Of a DNA stretch of 32,987 nucleotides, positions 1,220 through 18,874 are shown piece after piece; within the stretch, counting starts at the first letter, position 1; every line of letters starts with the position of its first letter. The position numbers and the translations under genes are program-made. The notes beneath the pieces were generated by a model, which saw nothing but the letters and a program-made list of their open reading frames with translations, did not search any database and had not been told where the DNA came from. Origin of the DNA: Chloroflexota bacterium. Lineage in GTDB: Bacteria > Chloroflexota > Dehalococcoidia > SHYB01. The stretch lies in the NCBI GenBank assembly GCA_016875535.1, contig VGPF01000027.1, positions 1 through 32,987 of the forward strand, written 5' to 3'.

Positions 1220-1936
1220 TTAACTTACGGGCTTCACTTCTCGGCTGATCGAGAGGGTGCCCCCGTAGTGATAGAGGCTTCGGCCAGCATCAGCGCCGAC
1301 GACAAAGATATCGAAGTATTCGGGGCTTCGGAAGCAGGAGATCTGGGTTTCCGGCACGTCCCAGAGCCACTGAAGCTCGGGATGCGCCACAACAAAGCCT
1401 TGCTTAGGTTTGTTCAGCATCAGCTTTTGGAAGGACATCTTGGAGGCCTTGTAGAGCATCTCCTTAACGTCCTGAATAGATAGCCCGTGCTGGGCGAAGG
1501 CCTCTGCATGGTCCGGGCACATGAGGATCAGGTTCTGCGAATCGCCGTGAAAGGGCCCAGGACCGGACTTATCACCGGGGGAACTGATGAGCCAGTAGCC
1601 TGTGCTCACCTGGGCGGCGTTGCAGGTGGCGGTGGCGAAGGTCTCGATGAGGAGCTTGGGGTCGTGGTTCTGAAAGTCAAAGAGCTCACAGACACCGTAG
1701 GGAACGTTCACTGTGACGATGGACTGGTCCTTTCGATATCCCTTCAGCTCGCGATAGGCAGGCCAAGGATTCCGCTCTTCATTCTCCGCCACACATGCAC
1801 CGAACTTAATGGTAGTACCGATGGTGTCCATGTCACTGACGCCTGGGTATGAATGGCCGACGTTCATCATCATGAGGCGCAGCGTGCGGCCGATGCTGAC
1901 GTTGACTTGCGAAATCGCGCCGGGGCCTAGGGCCCC
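1220..1936 (-). pseudogene. UGSC-family protein, C-terminal relic
   Basis: This open frame of about 239 residues matches the last 40 percent of the intact UGSC-family gene at 9892-11595 nearly end to end. Shared blocks include MNVGHSYPGVSDMDTIG, VTVNVPYGVCELFDFQNHDP and FDIFVVGADAGRSLYH. Homology continues upstream of the ATG triplet at 1873 through GPGAISQVNVSIGR and then stops at a TGA at 1937-1939. The N-terminal UGSC domain with its redox motif is absent, so the copy is truncated. The preceding gene relic ends only 22 bases away, consistent with a deletion that joined the two. The C-terminus is intact and free of stops, so a short product from the ATG codons cannot be excluded, though no good ribosome site is visible. 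Confidence 0.8.
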
Positions 1937-1958
1937 TCACCGATAATTCGCGCAAGCG

Positions 1959-2393
1959 CTAGGGTAACGCTATCGTCGCCATTGCCTGTGCCGAAGTGCC
2001 GCGCGGGTTTTCCATCACCAATTCTACGTCCACAAGCCCCCCGCCCTTCTCATCGCGATAGGCCTTGGTCACTTTCCCCATCACCGTTGCCGTATCGCCC
2101 ACGCACGTCGGCTCCCGCATGGAGACACCGAGTTTTTGATTGCCCCCTCCGGGCCGCTCCAATCGGTCAGGAACCGGCCCAGCAGGGCCTGGTAGAACAT
2201 CGCATTCACAAAGATATCCTTTGCCCTGTACTCCTGGCGAACGCGCTGTCATGGTGCGCCGGAAAAAGTCACGGGTTCCTGCGACAGCAAGGATAGCCCG
2301 TTGCAGCGAGATTTCAAGGGAGAGTGTGCCCATCTCCTGGCTGGCCTGGACCACGCCCCACGTGAGCCGCTTCCGCTGTCTGTCCCTCTTCAC
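1959..2393 (-). pseudogene. MaoC-like hydratase (second hot-dog subunit), frameshifted
   Basis: The ends of this frame read as a MaoC/hot-dog protein: start QEMGTLSLEISLQRAILAVA and tail VMGKVTKAYRDEKGGGLVDV. The middle does not, but the homologous text DIFVNAMFYQALLGRFLTDW is found in another frame around 2155-2215. Two frame changes explain this: a lost C after TTTTTC near 2264, and an A run of five near 2135 where six would restore the frame. The intermediate frame also has a TGA where a Trp would be expected. A GTG start with AGGAAG upstream directly follows the first-subunit relic, as in a two-gene hydratase operon. Decay is the simplest reading; sequencing error would need several independent mistakes. 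Confidence 0.78.
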
Positions 2394-2396
2394 GGA

Positions 2397-2897
2397 TCAC
2401 TTCCTGTACCTGAAATAGACGCCGGTGTTTTTGCCCACAACCTCGAGCCGATGATTCACGAACTTCGTCACCTGCGTCACAAAGTGCCCCTCGCCGAGGC
2501 GCGTCTTTTTCTGCGCTGAGATGTCCGTGATCGTATCGCGCGCGCCGATTCGGTCTCCGGGGCGCACGGGCAGCAGGTACTCCTGCGTCGCCCCCGTGGC
2601 GATATTCCCCTCATAGCCTGCCAGCGTGACGCGCTGCAGCATATCGGGGTCGCCGTCTCGCTTGGGCCAGGTGGGCTGTTGGACCCAGGTAAGCAGCATC
2701 ATGGGGGGGAGCATTGATGCCGCCGTAGAGAGACTTCTTGGCAAACGCCTCGTGGGTGTAGAGGAGGGTCGCGTCTTCCACCATCTCGCACCAAAGGCGG
2801 ATCTGGCCTTCGTGACCTCGTCAGGGCCCCAGGTGATTTCGGATTCAGCGCCGAAAAGCGCCGCAAGCTGCGGGGGCAAACCGGCGCCTTGTGTCAC
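2397..2897 (-). pseudogene. MaoC-like hydratase (first hot-dog subunit), frameshifted
   Basis: The C-terminal part is a clear hot-dog domain with VRPGDRIGARDTITDISAQK and RLGEGHFVTQVTKF. Between about 2709 and 2807 the displayed frame turns to nonsense while a neighbouring frame gives WCEMVEDATLLYTHEAFAKK, the expected helix. A missing base near 2807 and an extra C in a run of seven at 2703-2709 account for both switches. The two changes compensate, so the ends are in one frame and a scrambled product of 166 residues could still be made. It is followed within a few bases by the second-subunit relic and preceded by the CaiB remnant. Confidence 0.76.
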
Positions 2898-2902
2898 CGA
2901 AG

Positions 2903-3379
2903 CTATCGCTTTCCGCGCCCGGCGCCGATGATCTCATCCACGATGTGCTGGTCTTCCCCAAGCAGCAGGGCCCGCCGGTAGATGCGCTACGGTGTCTCCG
3001 GCCATATGGCGGCGTTCCCCGGATACGTATAGCTCTCGCCCAGCTCCGGGTGTTCAACCTTCTTGAAAAAGTCACGAGCCAATAAGTGCTCGTCGTGGAC
3101 AAGCTCCTCCGGCGCGTTGATGCGCATCCACGTCAGGCCGATCTTCTGCTCGAATCGCTCCGGCTCGCCACGTCGGTACGGCCCGCCGATGCCGTAATAG
3201 CTTGAGACCTTTAGCCCGGAATCCTTGGCTCGTTTGATGCCCTTTTTAAGCCCGTAATCCTCTAACTTCTCTCTTTGCACACGGGTCGCCTGGAACCCAG
3301 CTCGCGCCCAGCCGTCCACGCACTGGCCGAAATCCCAGCCGGGCGTCGTCGTCACTGCCATGAAGAGCTTTGGATCCAC
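2903..3379 (-). pseudogene. Chimeric remnant: sugar-isomerase-like N-terminus joined to CaiB/BaiF CoA-transferase C-terminus
   Basis: From a GTG at 3379 with GGAAGG upstream, the first 65 or so residues resemble the start of a TIM-barrel sugar-phosphate isomerase/epimerase: LFMAVTTTPGWDFGQ, then GLKKGIKRAKDSGLKVSS. The following residues are instead the C-terminal end of a family III CoA-transferase: DEHLLARDFFKKVEHPELG and YPGNAAIWPETP. At 2987-2989 a TAG replaces the Trp usual in TPWRI; the same frame then continues RIYRRALLLGEDQHIVDEII to a TAG at 2903-2905. So the locus shows a deletion fusion plus a nonsense mutation. A CaiB protein is normally about 400 residues; only the last third remains. 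Confidence 0.66.
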
Positions 3380-3539
3380 GCTATGCCTTCCCGGCCCTTC
3401 GGCAATCGTATACAATGCGCATGCAGCCGCGCACGTTTGTAACACTAAACCTGGCGTCCTGTCCAGTAACTTGCGAATCCCCCACGCCGCAAGGTAGTCT
3501 GCCGGTCGCTGCTCTAGCCATGACCCTCGGAGAACACCT

Positions 3540-4679
3540 ATGACGACCAACCTAGGGATCGAAGCGAAAATCACTGACGAGATGCTGGCAAAGGCCAGAG
3601 TCCGCCTCGGCCAGGAAACACCTATCTCCAACCCGTGGAATACCGAGGTCACACGCGACAACATCCGCCAGTGGGTCGAAGCCATCGGCGATGTGAACCC
3701 CCTCTGGATTGACCCTGCCTACGCCGCCAAGACGCGTTACGGAACGTTGCTCGCGCCCCCAAGCTTCCTCTACACCTGCAACCAGGGCCCGATCCATCGC
3801 GGCGCTACGGCAGGCGGCTTCCGCGGCTTCCCCGGCATTCACCGCTTCTGGGCCAAGGAAGAATGGGAGTGGTTCGTCCCCATGAAGCTCAGCGACCAGA
3901 TTCGCGGCACCACCAAGGTCAAGGAATTCATCGAGCATCGCAGCACCCTTGGCGGCCGCTCCATCGAAGACGTGACGGAGCAGGCCTTCTATAACCAGCG
4001 CAACGAACTCATCGCCCTCCACCGTATGTTCTTCGTAAACGTCGAGCGTAAGACGGCAGGCGAAAAGGGCAAGCACAAAGAGCACAAGGCCTATCGCTAC
4101 ACCGAAAAAGAACTGGCCCAGATCGAAGCTGACATTGACAGGGAAGTCGTCCGCGGCGCGAAACCTCTTCACTGGAACGACGTGCAGATCGGCGAAGAGA
4201 TTCCCCACGTCGTCAAAGGCCCCTTCACCACTACTGAGGCCGTCGCCTTCGTTGCAGGCTGGGGCGGCCCCTTCATCATGGCCTCGGAGGTCACCCACAG
4301 ATATATCCGCGCTCATCCCAAGGCCAATGTCCCCGATCGCGAGACCAATGCCCCTGATTTCCCCGAGCGCGCCCACTGGGACAACAGCTTCGCTCGCGAA
4401 GTCGGCGCGCCCGGCGCATACGATTTCGGCGGCCAGCGCGTCGCCTGGGTCATGCACGCCCTCCACAACTGGGGCGGCGATGACGCCTCCATCCGCTCCA
4501 TCTCAGCCAAGCTCGTGAAGTTCAACGTCCTTGGCGATACCCAGTGGTGCAAGGCCAAGGTCACCGGCAAAACCGTTGAGAAAGGTCAGCATCTGGTCGC
4601 CCTGGAAGTCTGGTGTCAGAACCAGCGCAATGAGATCACCCTTACTGGCGAGGCGAAGGTCCAACTCCCGGAAAAGTAG
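3540..4679 (+). CDS. Double hot-dog MaoC/FAS1-like dehydratase family protein
   Basis: A 379-residue protein with two hot-dog halves (about 15-175 and 195-375), the layout of FAS1-like or MaoC-type (R)-enoyl-CoA hydratases. The first half has WVEAIGDVNPLWIDPAYA and LLAPPSFLY. The hydratase motif Asp-x-Asn-Pro-x-His is changed here: Asp51 and Asn-Pro are kept, but Trp56 stands where the catalytic His is expected. The second half lacks an obvious dyad. Hydratase activity is therefore uncertain, and a binding or related CoA-ester role is possible. Start ATG 3540 follows CGGAGA at 3528-3533. A seven-codon frame (3519-3542) ends on its start codon but looks accidental. A TACAAT box occurs at 3411. 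Downstream lie two smaller MaoC-like genes on the same strand. Confidence 0.85.
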   Translation: MTTNLGIEAKITDEMLAKARVRLGQETPISNPWNTEVTRDNIRQWVEAIGDVNPLWIDPAYAAKTRYGTLLAPPSFLYTCNQGPIHRGATAGGFRGFPGIHRFWAKEEWEWFVPMKLSDQIRGTTKVKEFIEHRSTLGGRSIEDVTEQAFYNQRNELIALHRMFFVNVERKTAGEKGKHKEHKAYRYTEKELAQIEADIDREVVRGAKPLHWNDVQIGEEIPHVVKGPFTTTEAVAFVAGWGGPFIMASEVTHRYIRAHPKANVPDRETNAPDFPERAHWDNSFAREVGAPGAYDFGGQRVAWVMHALHNWGGDDASIRSISAKLVKFNVLGDTQWCKAKVTGKTVEKGQHLVALEVWCQNQRNEITLTGEAKVQLPEK

Positions 4680-9068: not shown

Positions 9069-9884
9069 CTACCGGTTCCGGTAGTTGCCCTTCCGCTTTT
9101 GGGCAAAGGCCAGCGCCGCCTCTTTCTTGTCCTCGCAGATCGCCGTGAGCGATTCAACAGCCGCGCAGTAATGGTGCGTGCTCACCACTTCCTGCCAGAT
9201 GCGCTGGTTCAGCGCAGACTTCGTCCACCTGATCGCCATCGGCGCCCCTTCAACCAGCTCCTTCGCCAGCTCCAGCGCCTTCGGCATCACCTGGCCCTGC
9301 GGCACAACGTGGTTCACCAGGCCGTACTTCAGCGCCTCGTGCGCCTTCAGCAGGCGGCCCGTCATCAGCATCTCCTTCGCCCGGTTCATGCCAATGAGGA
9401 AGGGCCACATCAGCGCGCCGCCGTCCCCCGCCACAAGCCCCATCCGCACATGCGTGTCGCCGATGCGCGCCGTCTCCGCCATGATGGTGATGTCGCACAT
9501 CAGCGCCAGCGTCGCCCCGAATCCTGCGGCATCGCCGTTGATCGCCGCGATGGTGGGCACTTCGCAGTTCAAGTAGTCATGGATGATCCACTTGCCCCCG
9601 CGCAGGATCCCGCCGATCGTCTTCGGCGGCTCGTTTACCTCTGCCGCCTTCGCCATCACCTTCACATCCCCGCCTGCGCTGAACGCCCGCTCCCCCGCGC
9701 CGGTCAGGATGACGCAGCGCACGCGCTCGTCATGGTTGAACGCGATAAGGATCTCTTCGAGCCCTTGGTGGATCGCCGGGTTCGTGGCGTTCATCCGCTC
9801 AGGCCGGTTGATGGTGATCGTGGCGATATGGTCCTCCACCTTCACCAGGAGGTCCACCTCCGCGTAGCGTGAATAGTCGTTCAT
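9069..9884 (-). CDS. Crotonase-family protein lacking both hydratase glutamates
   Basis: A 271-residue crotonase-fold protein. The oxyanion-hole segments are present: AFSAGGDVK (68-75) and INGDAAGFGATLALMCD. In classical enoyl-CoA hydratase two Glu residues do the chemistry; aligned by motif, they are Thr125 and His145 here (GDTHVRMG). A following VAGDGGALMWP supplies Asp154. The His and AGDG arrangement recalls hydrolase-like crotonases such as 6-oxocamphor hydrolase, so C-C or thioester hydrolysis is as likely as hydration. It starts seven bases after the UGSC-family stop codon, so the two are almost surely cotranscribed. Confidence 0.88.
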   Translation of the reverse strand: MNDYSRYAEVDLLVKVEDHIATITINRPERMNATNPAIHQGLEEILIAFNHDERVRCVILTGAGERAFSAGGDVKVMAKAAEVNEPPKTIGGILRGGKWIIHDYLNCEVPTIAAINGDAAGFGATLALMCDITIMAETARIGDTHVRMGLVAGDGGALMWPFLIGMNRAKEMLMTGRLLKAHEALKYGLVNHVVPQGQVMPKALELAKELVEGAPMAIRWTKSALNQRIWQEVVSTHHYCAAVESLTAICEDKKEAALAFAQKRKGNYRNR

Positions 9885-9891
9885 CGCCGCC

Positions 9892-11595
9892 TCATCGCGG
9901 TCGCTTCACCTGACGGCTGATGGAGAGCGTCCCGCCGAAGTGGTACAGACTCCGCCCGGCGTCCGCCCCCACGACGAAGATATCGAAGTCCTCAGAGTTG
10001 CGGAACATTGAAATCTCGGTCTCCGGGTAATCCCACAGCCACTGCATATGGGGATTTGCGACCTCGAAAGCCTGCCTGGGCTTGGCCAGCATGAGGCTGC
10101 GGAAGGACATCCGCGAGCCGTTGTACAGGGCCTCCTTCAACCGCTGGAGGCTCCAGCCCGCGTTGCGGAAGACCGTGGCATGGTCAGGGCAGAGAAGGAT
10201 GAGATTCTGCCGCTCGCCGTGCATCGGTCCCGTGGCGTCGGGGCTGCTGATGAGCCAATTTCCTGAGCCCGTCTGCGCGCCGTTCTTGATGGCGGAGCAG
10301 AACGATTCCACCAGCAGCTCCGGATCGTGGTTCTGGAAATCAAAGAGCTCGCAGACCCCGTACGGCACGTTCACCGTCACCGTCGTGGCGCTTCGGTCAT
10401 ACCCCTTGGAGACCCGGTACGGCTCCCACGGGTTCGCCGCCTCGTTCTCCGCCACGCAGGCGCTGAACTTCATGGCGCTGCCGATCGTGTCCATATCGCT
10501 CACGCCCGGGTATGAATGGCCCACGTTCATCATGATGAGCCGGAGGGCCCTGCCGATGCTCACGTTGACTTGAGAGATTGAGCCTGGGCCCAACGCGCAG
10601 ACCCCGTGGTTCATCCCGATCTCCTGCGCCATCGGCCCGCTCACCATCACCACCGGCGCCTGCGGTCCCGTGGACATCGCGAAGCCCCGCAGCCCGATCC
10701 GCGGCTCCAAGATGCACTCCATCATCGCGAGGATGATCGGCATCGTCGCTGGCTTGCACCCCGCCATCACCGCATTGGCCGCGATCTTCTCCACCGTCCC
10801 TATCCCGAATCCCGGCTCAAAGAGGCCGACGACCTCGTCGCCTTTGCGGCCCGAGGCGGCGATCATCGCCTCCACCTTCGCCCGCGTCGGCGGCACTAGC
10901 GGCATGCCGTCGCTCCACCCTGCGCGGATGAAGGCCGTTTGCATCTCATCAAAGCAGGCCAGCAGGTCGCCGGCCGTGTAAACAAGCTCAGGCTCCGTCG
11001 CAAGGGTGACGTGCTTGACGCTCGGGAGCCTGCCCAGAAGCTCTTGCTTGTGGGTCAATGCCGCGATGATTTGCGGGAGCGCCGCGTCCACCATGGCATG
11101 GATCCGCCCGGGGTCCTGATTAGTGAACGGATACGGCACCTCCGCGATGGGCGCTTCGGGGCAGCCGTAGACATTCGCGCTCCAGTGCGCGTCTTCCACA
11201 AAGCCCTTCGCCGTCCACGCGACCGTCGCGACGCCTCGCTTCTCCAATTCGCTCATGTCACGCACGAGCGCTGAGGTGCAGTTCCCTCAGTCGGCGGTTG
11301 CCCCCACCACTGCCGCGCAATCCTTCGCCATGCTGTCGAACTGCGCATTGGAGGCACGACGAGCAAAGGTTCCGTGCTCGCCGAAATACTCGCGGAACTT
11401 GGACGTGGGATAGAGGCGCTGAAGCAATTCCTTGGTGCGCGTAAGCCCAATTTCCCCACCCGCCTTCGAGTTCCAGAACAGTCCGATCGTCTTCCCCTCT
11501 AAGGTCTGTGGCCGCGCCGCTGGCGGGAAGCGATTGGCCCGCGGCGTCGCTGCCTGAGCCAGTGCGATTGGGTTTACGATGCGAAGTTCAGCCAT
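9892..11595 (-). CDS. UGSC-family protein, probable selenoprotein (Sec103 encoded by TGA)
   Basis: Reading from ATG 11595 (AAGGAG at 11601-11606), the frame runs 102 codons to TGA at 11287-11289 and then stays open in the same frame to a TGA at 9892-9894, 567 residues in all. Across the first TGA the protein reads VVGATAD-U-GNCTSALVRD. This matches the motif of the UGSC family, a group known as (seleno)proteins with Sec-Gly-Ser-Cys; here Ser is Asn (U103, C106). An SECIS-like hairpin follows at 11250-11270. No ribosome site precedes the GTG at 11265, so internal initiation is a poor alternative. The UGSC domain covers about residues 30-185; a C-terminal domain of unknown role (about 210-567) contains GWSDGMPLVPPTRAKVE and GHSYPGVSDMDTIG. 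It is probably a cytoplasmic redox or thiol enzyme, function unknown, cotranscribed with a crotonase. Confidence 0.82.
11250..11270 (-). promoter_or_regulatory. SECIS-like hairpin after the in-frame TGA
   Basis: On the minus strand CGCTCGTG and CATGAGCG form an eight-pair stem (one G-U) around the loop CGTGA. Counting the T of the TGA as 1, the stem covers 20-27 and 33-40 and the loop 28-32. Known bacterial SECIS elements have an apical loop at about this distance, with a G among the first loop bases; here G is second. A competing five-pair stem TGAGG/CCTCA starts at the TGA itself. Confidence 0.55.
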
Positions 11596-11814
11596 AACCA
11601 CTCCTTTGGCGCCTGCCCAACTTTATCTTGGTAAGTATCTACCCTATTGCAAGCCCTGCATCAACCTACGGTATGGGGGAGAGCGGATACACCAAAACCG
11701 GAACATCTCTGGAGATCCCCAGGATACAGTCTCGACAAAGCCCTAGAGACGTGGCATGCTTCGCCAGTCAGAGGGCCGAGACGAAACGCAGAGGCCCGGC
11801 GGAAGGGAGCCAAG

Positions 11815-17978: not shown

Positions 17979-18154
17979 CAGGACGCCTCCTAGAGGTAGT
18001 CGCGGGAAGACGCGGTACAGCGTAGGCGCGCTCTGCCCTCCTGTCAAACATCCTGCCGTGCCCGAGCCGAATCGCAGGCGTGGATATGCAAAATGCCTCC
18101 CCTTCGCTGCCCGTCTATTATCTGGCTGCTTCCACAGGGAGCGAAGGAGGCCGT

Positions 18155-18874
18155 ATGGACTACTCGGCTTTTGCGAAGGAACACGAACTGGAAATCACGG
18201 TCAAGGATCGCGTCGCCCTGGTGAAATTCAATCGGCCTCACGTGCGCAACCAGATGACCTATGCCATGCATCGCGGCATCGAGCGCCTCTTGCCTGATCT
18301 CGGCATAGATCCCGATGTCGGTGCCATCGTGCTCACCGGCTCAGGCACCGATTTCACCGTCGGCGGCTCCAACCAGCAGAGCTACAAGACGGTGAAGGGC
18401 TTGGGGCTGGCCGTGGGCGGCGACCAGGGGATGCTGCAGGACGATTACGATTTCACGGCCTTCCCGGAGACGTACCATGTCGCAATCCAGGCCTATCAGG
18501 AGGCAGGGATCACGAATCCGCGCAAGGAGCTGAGCCTGGTGGAACTGCACGATTGCTTCACGATCACTGAGCTGATCACGTATGAGGACCTGCAGATCGC
18601 GCCGCGCGGGAAAGGGACGGCGGATGTGGCGGCAGGGACGTTCACGCTGGAGGGCGAACTGCCGGTGAACCCGGACGGGGGCCTGAAATGCTTCGGCCAT
18701 CCCATCGGGGCGAGCGGGATACGGATGGTGTACGAAGCCTACAAGCAGATCCAGGGCAAGGCGGGGCCGCGACAGATCAAGGATGCGAAGCTGGCGCTGG
18801 CGCACAGCCTAGGCGGGGTACCGGGATCGTTCGCGTGCGGGGTCTCCATCGTCGGGCGCACGGACACGAAGTAA
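18155..18874 (+). pseudogene. Chimera of a crotonase N-terminus and a thiolase C-terminus
   Basis: The 239-residue open frame has two unrelated parts. About residues 1-74 are a crotonase start (VKDRVALVKFNRPHVRNQMT, then AIVLTGSGTDFTVGG). From about 77 on it is the C-terminal half of an SCP-x/lipid-transfer type thiolase: VKGLGLAVGGDQGMLQDDYD, LVELHDCFTITELITYEDL and CFGHPIGASG. The thiolase half keeps its two His/Cys segments but lacks the N-terminal half with the nucleophilic Cys; the crotonase half lacks its glutamates. An in-frame deletion between two genes is the likely origin. GAAGGAGG precedes ATG 18155, and TATTAT is at 18116, so it may be expressed. Neither activity is expected. Confidence 0.7.

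Follow-up and report, generated by a model that had tools for sequence, protein, structure and literature searches.

The 32,987-nucleotide stretch analysed here (the window) carries on its minus strand a predicted selenoprotein coding sequence, 9892..11595, in which a UGSC domain is followed by a C-terminal domain; its extent is that of the read-through frame and is matched by full-length homologs. Minus-strand translation of 11595..9892 gave 567 codons and a terminal stop (TGA, 9892-9894, minus strand). The sole internal stop was the TGA of codon 103 (11287..11289, minus strand), which is read as selenocysteine on the basis of the homologs described below. The sequence around this codon is GATAD-U-GNC-TS, and Cys106 (11278..11280, minus strand) would be the partner of Sec103 in a U-x-x-C motif. 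A Shine-Dalgarno-like AAGGAG, read from the sequence, lies 5 nt before the ATG (11595), at 11601..11606 of the minus strand; inspection of the sequence ahead of the GTG at 11265 revealed nothing resembling AAGGAG. The mechanical ORF list cuts the gene in two, 11287-11601 and 9892-11265, giving an upstream piece of 104 amino acids from an upstream GTG, or 102 from the ATG, and a downstream piece of 457 amino acids.

A first-pass annotation had described one 567-codon frame broken only by the TGA at 11287-11289. Retranslation agreed with this frame and its coordinates, and the strand, which had been left unstated, is minus. The start signals claimed there, AAGGAG at the upstream start and none at the downstream GTG, were both found in the sequence, and the predicted split by a gene caller into about 102 and 457 residues is what the ORF list does. 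The protein-like sequence reported to flow across the TGA is spanned by the Pfam UGSC match, homologs of 54-80% identity align with it over their full length, and the Cys noted three residues past the TGA is Cys106, an invariant column among 42 aligned fusion proteins.

Domain architecture and the known UGSC family

The UGSC domain (PF24696; residues 6-181; 11053..11580, minus strand) scored 113 bits against a cut-off of 25, and the match crosses the TGA. The NF041046 equivalog aligned over the whole model (1-147) with 94.6 bits, below the NCBI cut-off of 125; the earlier assignment to the UGSC family thus passes the Pfam threshold and misses the NCBI one. In an AlphaFold2 model (pLDDT 91.6, pTM 0.92), the UGSC domain is predicted to consist of five alternating strands and helices, and Sec103 is placed where strand 3 ends and helix 3 starts.

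The remainder of the protein forms a conserved C-terminal domain of the 'Unknown_1' type (residues 205-567; 9895..10983, minus strand). No Pfam match was obtained for this region (residues ∼205-567) even at E<=10, and profile comparison found it unrelated to UGSC and to the selenoproteins GrdB/PrdB. Matches to cyclic amide hydrolase and MmgE/PrpD-like proteins were at noise level and were rejected. PDB sequence searches with the protein or with the alignment of either domain returned no relative, nor did a PDB sequence search with a GrdB-like protein, and the PDB offers no solved GrdB or UGSC structure for comparison. No match at E<=0.001 came from fold searches with the full model or with the C-terminal domain; the best Foldseek matches were flavodoxin-like and periplasmic-binding-protein domains, all weak. 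In this genome the C-terminal domain is also encoded on its own, by genes adjoining the stand-alone UGSC genes, an arrangement that speaks for joint action of the two domains.

A UGSC-containing protein was published in 2008 by Zhang and Gladyshev in the GOS paper (PMC2398784), which reported its fusion with the conserved domain 'Unknown_1', proposed a thioredoxin-like fold and counted the family among the commonest selenoproteins of aquatic metagenomes. No function has been assigned to the family in the later literature that we searched. The present protein shares with it (PF24696/NF041046) the same domain at full length, Sec or Cys at the motif and a Cys three residues on; the Unknown_1 fusion is also common to both, the C-terminal domain here being equated with Unknown_1 by description only. 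It differs from the family as described in having UGNC instead of UGSC, besides the equivalog score given above. The gene is thus an additional member of an already described selenoprotein family.

Conservation of codon 103 and the U-x-x-C motif

TGA occupies codon 103 in full-length homologs of 80% (same genus), 70%, 64% and 60% identity, and also in an intact paralog of 79% identity on contig C11 of the same genome; besides the paralog, it recurs in three related, independent assemblies. Three homologs of 54-58% identity (L061-L063) have a Cys codon at this position, within DCGSC; they come from an Actinomycetota MAG (58%), a Caulobacteraceae MAG (54%) and Trujillonella endophytica DSM 45413 (L063, 54%). 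The Caulobacteraceae assembly (L062) gave no selA match, and both of its UGSC genes are without TGA. selA is present in the other two genomes, indicating that the Cys form needs no loss of the selenocysteine machinery. Across the 42 aligned fusion proteins (TGA being entered as C, and position 106 being TGA in one copy), position 103 was Sec or Cys in 42/42 and position 106 was invariantly Cys, answering the earlier question of whether homologs have Cys at residue 103.

The family motif is U/C-G-S-C, and U-G-N-C is found here. The first-pass annotation had regarded the Asn variant as a notable deviation. Members of the family differ freely at the third residue of the motif, where S, N, A, G, T, D, Y and Q all occur, and a second copy, L082, is also UGNC. 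UGNC as a special variant was therefore rejected, and it is best seen as ordinary variation.

Several relatives depart further from the common pattern. A UGSC fusion paralog (L069; 89-1756 of G031:C101, minus strand) has two in-frame TGAs and the motif U-G-T-U; with both the Sec and the partner-Cys positions encoded by TGA, a double-selenocysteine active site is possible. In a full-length paralog of another genome (L095; G032:C16) the Sec-Cys motif is replaced by GDHRPS, and this copy is possibly catalytically dead. The relative that holds L069, G031, has at least 20 UGSC fusion genes on several contigs, nearly all with one TGA, and several of them stand in tandem with genes for family-5 solute-binding proteins.

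Selenocysteine machinery of the host genome

The host genome is a draft of 2.52 Mb with an estimated completeness of 98%. All four components that the first-pass annotation had proposed looking for were found in it: tRNA-Sec (66 bits against a cut-off of 47; also called by ARAGORN as SeC(tca), anticodon TCA), selA (542 bits), selB (334 bits) and selD (371 bits), the last itself containing one in-frame TGA. Of the genome's seven UGSC genes, one has no internal TGA and the other six have one each. A thioredoxin gene ends ∼30 nt before the tRNA-Sec gene (G000:C2:14845-15270; L001, L164), an adjacency that might matter for selenoprotein recycling.

A SECIS-type hairpin downstream of the TGA

Downstream of the TGA, the minus strand contains a SECIS-like hairpin, CGCTCGTG-CGTGA-CATGAGCG (11250..11270), with an 8 bp stem and a 5-nt loop, CGUGA, whose second base is G, followed by U. 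The loop lies 24 nt past the UGA and the hairpin energy is -10.6 kcal/mol. PMC13188914 quotes a model of the bacterial SECIS with a loop of 3-9 nt, a stem of 4-16 bp, a G among the first two loop bases, a distance of 16-37 nt from the UGA and an MFE <= -7.5; the hairpin agrees with every one of these constraints. Along this gene, a qualifying stem of such length follows just 4% of the codon positions.

Among the seven sequences of the window's clade, 98% of cells were paired compared with 20-55% in slid controls, with most changes one-sided and a shuffle control that is not decisive at n=7. Synonymous recoding, which measures the number of pairs given the amino-acid sequence, gave p values of 0.03-0.22 per gene, consistent but not individually significant; Cys homologs showed no such excess of pairs. 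Taken alone and given the protein sequence, the hairpin is only moderately unusual. More distant UGSC genes have their hairpin 6 nt closer to the UGA, and it covaries there, with 13 cells changed on both sides, a number reached by 0/500 shuffles. It would therefore seem that the hairpin register is shifted in the window's clade. An Rfam search around the TGA gave no SECIS family and chance-level matches only.

Selection across the TGA

Divergence at third codon positions was dominant both before and after the TGA, with dN < dS on each side; over comparable stretches, dN/dS against the two closest homologs was ∼0.07-0.17, ratios that are rough because dS is near saturation. Judged by these substitutions, purifying selection acts on the gene on either side of the TGA; such constraint excludes in practice a sequencing error or a dead gene. 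The earlier call of a probable selenoprotein is in agreement with the selenocysteine machinery, the Cys or Sec at position 103 and the recurrent TGA, and we regard it as nearly certain that this is a genuine selenoprotein gene whose UGA would be decoded as Sec103. It is very improbable that faulty sequencing or assembly turned a Cys codon into TGA, or that the gene is a pseudogene. Apparent gene fragments in the window, such as a truncated paralog piece at 1220-1948, show that decay or misassembly does happen nearby, but against both readings the paralog (G000:C11) and three related assemblies share TGA at this codon, purifying selection persists past it, 6/7 UGSC genes of the genome have a single TGA, and the Sec machinery is present. 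Reading the TGA as Trp (code 4) was also rejected, since homologs have Cys and other genes in the window stop at TGA.

The fragment at 1220-1948 (minus strand) is ∼70% identical to residues 329-564 of the selenoprotein, and its 5' end is cut off directly beside the remains of another gene; it is either a paralog that has been truncated or a join made in assembly. At 18080-18874 (plus strand), a 264-aa ORF matches enoyl-CoA hydratase at its N terminus and a thiolase C-terminal domain at its C terminus, as would result from a deletion fusion or a misassembly. Short ORFs at 1959-3685 (minus strand) resemble broken dehydratase-type genes, with a FAS1_DH_region match that falls slightly short of the cut-off, and suggest decay or frameshifts.

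Probable relationship of the UGSC domain to GrdB/PrdB

A direct Pfam search with the protein reported UGSC alone and no match to PF07355, the family of GrdB and PrdB, which are selenoprotein subunits of the amino-acid reductases for glycine and D-proline, respectively. We gathered GrdB- and PrdB-like proteins from related genomes with PF07355 and compared profiles with hhalign. The UGSC profile aligned to the GrdB/PrdB profile with a probability of 96.3 and an E-value of 2e-9, with the Sec columns superposed. The probability was 91.7 when only stand-alone UGSC proteins were used, 93.5 with PrdB-like proteins only and 94.1 with GrdB only. Eight unrelated families scored at most 25, the highest being a Rossmann-type dehydrogenase, and column-shuffled controls at most 0.4; thioredoxin and TlpA gave 0.7 and 1.2. 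One-against-one E-values of this kind are uncalibrated for a database, so the evidence is the contrast with the controls. From this contrast, the UGSC domain is probably a distant homolog of the Sec domain of GrdB/PrdB. The likeness extends over ∼70-100 residues and comprises a common strand - UxxC - helix - ExxGI/LPT - strand pattern. Unlike GrdB/PrdB, the UGSC fusion has no region matching the N-terminal part of GrdB and carries a different fused domain.

The genome itself contains no PF07355 protein and no PF09338 protein, the GrdE-type pyruvoyl partner, in a search for partners that covered PF09338 alone. The pyruvoyl chemistry of the GrdB/PrdB enzymes would thus not be available in its usual form.

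Thioredoxin-like UxxC selenoproteins likewise place UxxC at a strand-helix junction, but they show no profile similarity to UGSC, and their topology differs from the one predicted here. A thioredoxin fold for the UGSC domain is accordingly not supported by the profile comparison or by the predicted structure.

Gene neighbourhood

An enoyl-CoA hydratase/crotonase gene (9069..9884, minus strand) starts 7 nt past the selenoprotein stop and is a probable operon partner. Genes for an acyl-CoA dehydrogenase, an SDR, a 2-hydroxyacid dehydrogenase, MaoC-type proteins and a family-5 ABC solute-binding protein are also nearby. Six other stretches likewise have family-5 solute-binding protein genes close to fusion genes; counted over these seven of the loci read, the enrichment is only suggestive. 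Copies in other phyla adjoin genes for tripartite tricarboxylate transporters, CoA transferases, the PEP mutase family, aconitase X, amidohydrolases and the enolase superfamily. The neighbours point to a role in small-molecule catabolism, and suggest more specifically the catabolism of an imported organic compound.

On the Paracoccus ferrooxidans plasmid pFER4, a UGSC gene (L157 6387-6956) is annotated as two hypothetical proteins, split at the TGA, with selB ∼4.4 kb downstream. The Paracoccus and Acidovorax plasmid copies are both annotated as short hypothetical pieces. Annotation pipelines thus cut such genes at the active-site codon.

Proposed mechanism

We propose, at a probability of roughly 0.4, that the protein is a cytosolic two-domain Sec-Cys reductase, composed of UGSC and 'Unknown_1', that resembles GrdB/PrdB and acts in small-molecule catabolism. 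SelB and tRNA-Sec would insert Sec103, which is predicted to end a β-strand and N-cap a helix within an alternating α/β domain. By analogy with GrdB/PrdB, the selenolate would attack an activated carbon of a small organic substrate that the C-terminal domain would position; Cys106 would resolve the intermediate as a Se-S bond, to be re-reduced by a thioredoxin-type reductant. We infer the Sec attack and the resolution by Cys106 from the GrdB/PrdB relationship. As GrdB/PrdB and PF09338 are both absent from the genome, the substrate would have to be activated by something else, possibly the C-terminal domain.

There is a substantial chance, somewhat short of even, that the selenoprotein performs other chemistry, for example substrate binding, isomerisation or the detoxification of electrophiles or peroxides. 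The C-terminal domain without a recognised relative leaves room for such roles, as do neighbours that vary widely by lineage, from aconitase X, PEP mutase-family and amidohydrolase genes to those of the enolase superfamily and the tripartite tricarboxylate transporter. Each mapped Sec, however, is followed three residues later by a Cys (or, in one copy, by a second TGA), and such a partner fits redox use.

A general thiol-disulfide oxidoreductase of thioredoxin-like fold, with Sec103-Cys106 as a CxxC-type pair working on disulfides of proteins or small molecules and the fused domain as an accessory redox domain, seems improbable. Its UxxC at a strand-helix junction recalls thioredoxin-type motifs, and Cys280 and Cys380 of the C-terminal domain, largely conserved (36/42 and 34/42, respectively), could suit a redox relay; yet the thioredoxin and TlpA profiles remain at noise where GrdB/PrdB reach 91-96, the predicted domain is a regular β-α alternation and not a thioredoxin topology, and the top fold matches, weak as they all are, lie with flavodoxin-like and periplasmic-binding-protein domains.

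Implications for the UGSC family

The probable link of the UGSC domain to GrdB/PrdB was added by the present analysis. For the reductase that we propose, it supplants the thioredoxin-like expectation with one of reductive cleavage of a small metabolite. A broader and more speculative idea, which we hold to be rather unlikely as it stands, is that the UGSC family may be a third branch of the GrdB/PrdB superfamily, made up of soluble Sec reductases in which a C-terminal domain, fused or neighbouring, takes over the binding and activation of the substrate and makes a pyruvoyl partner unnecessary. If this were true, the expansion of UGSC genes, to more than 20 copies in one relative, would point to many selenium-dependent catabolic reductions that have gone unrecognised.
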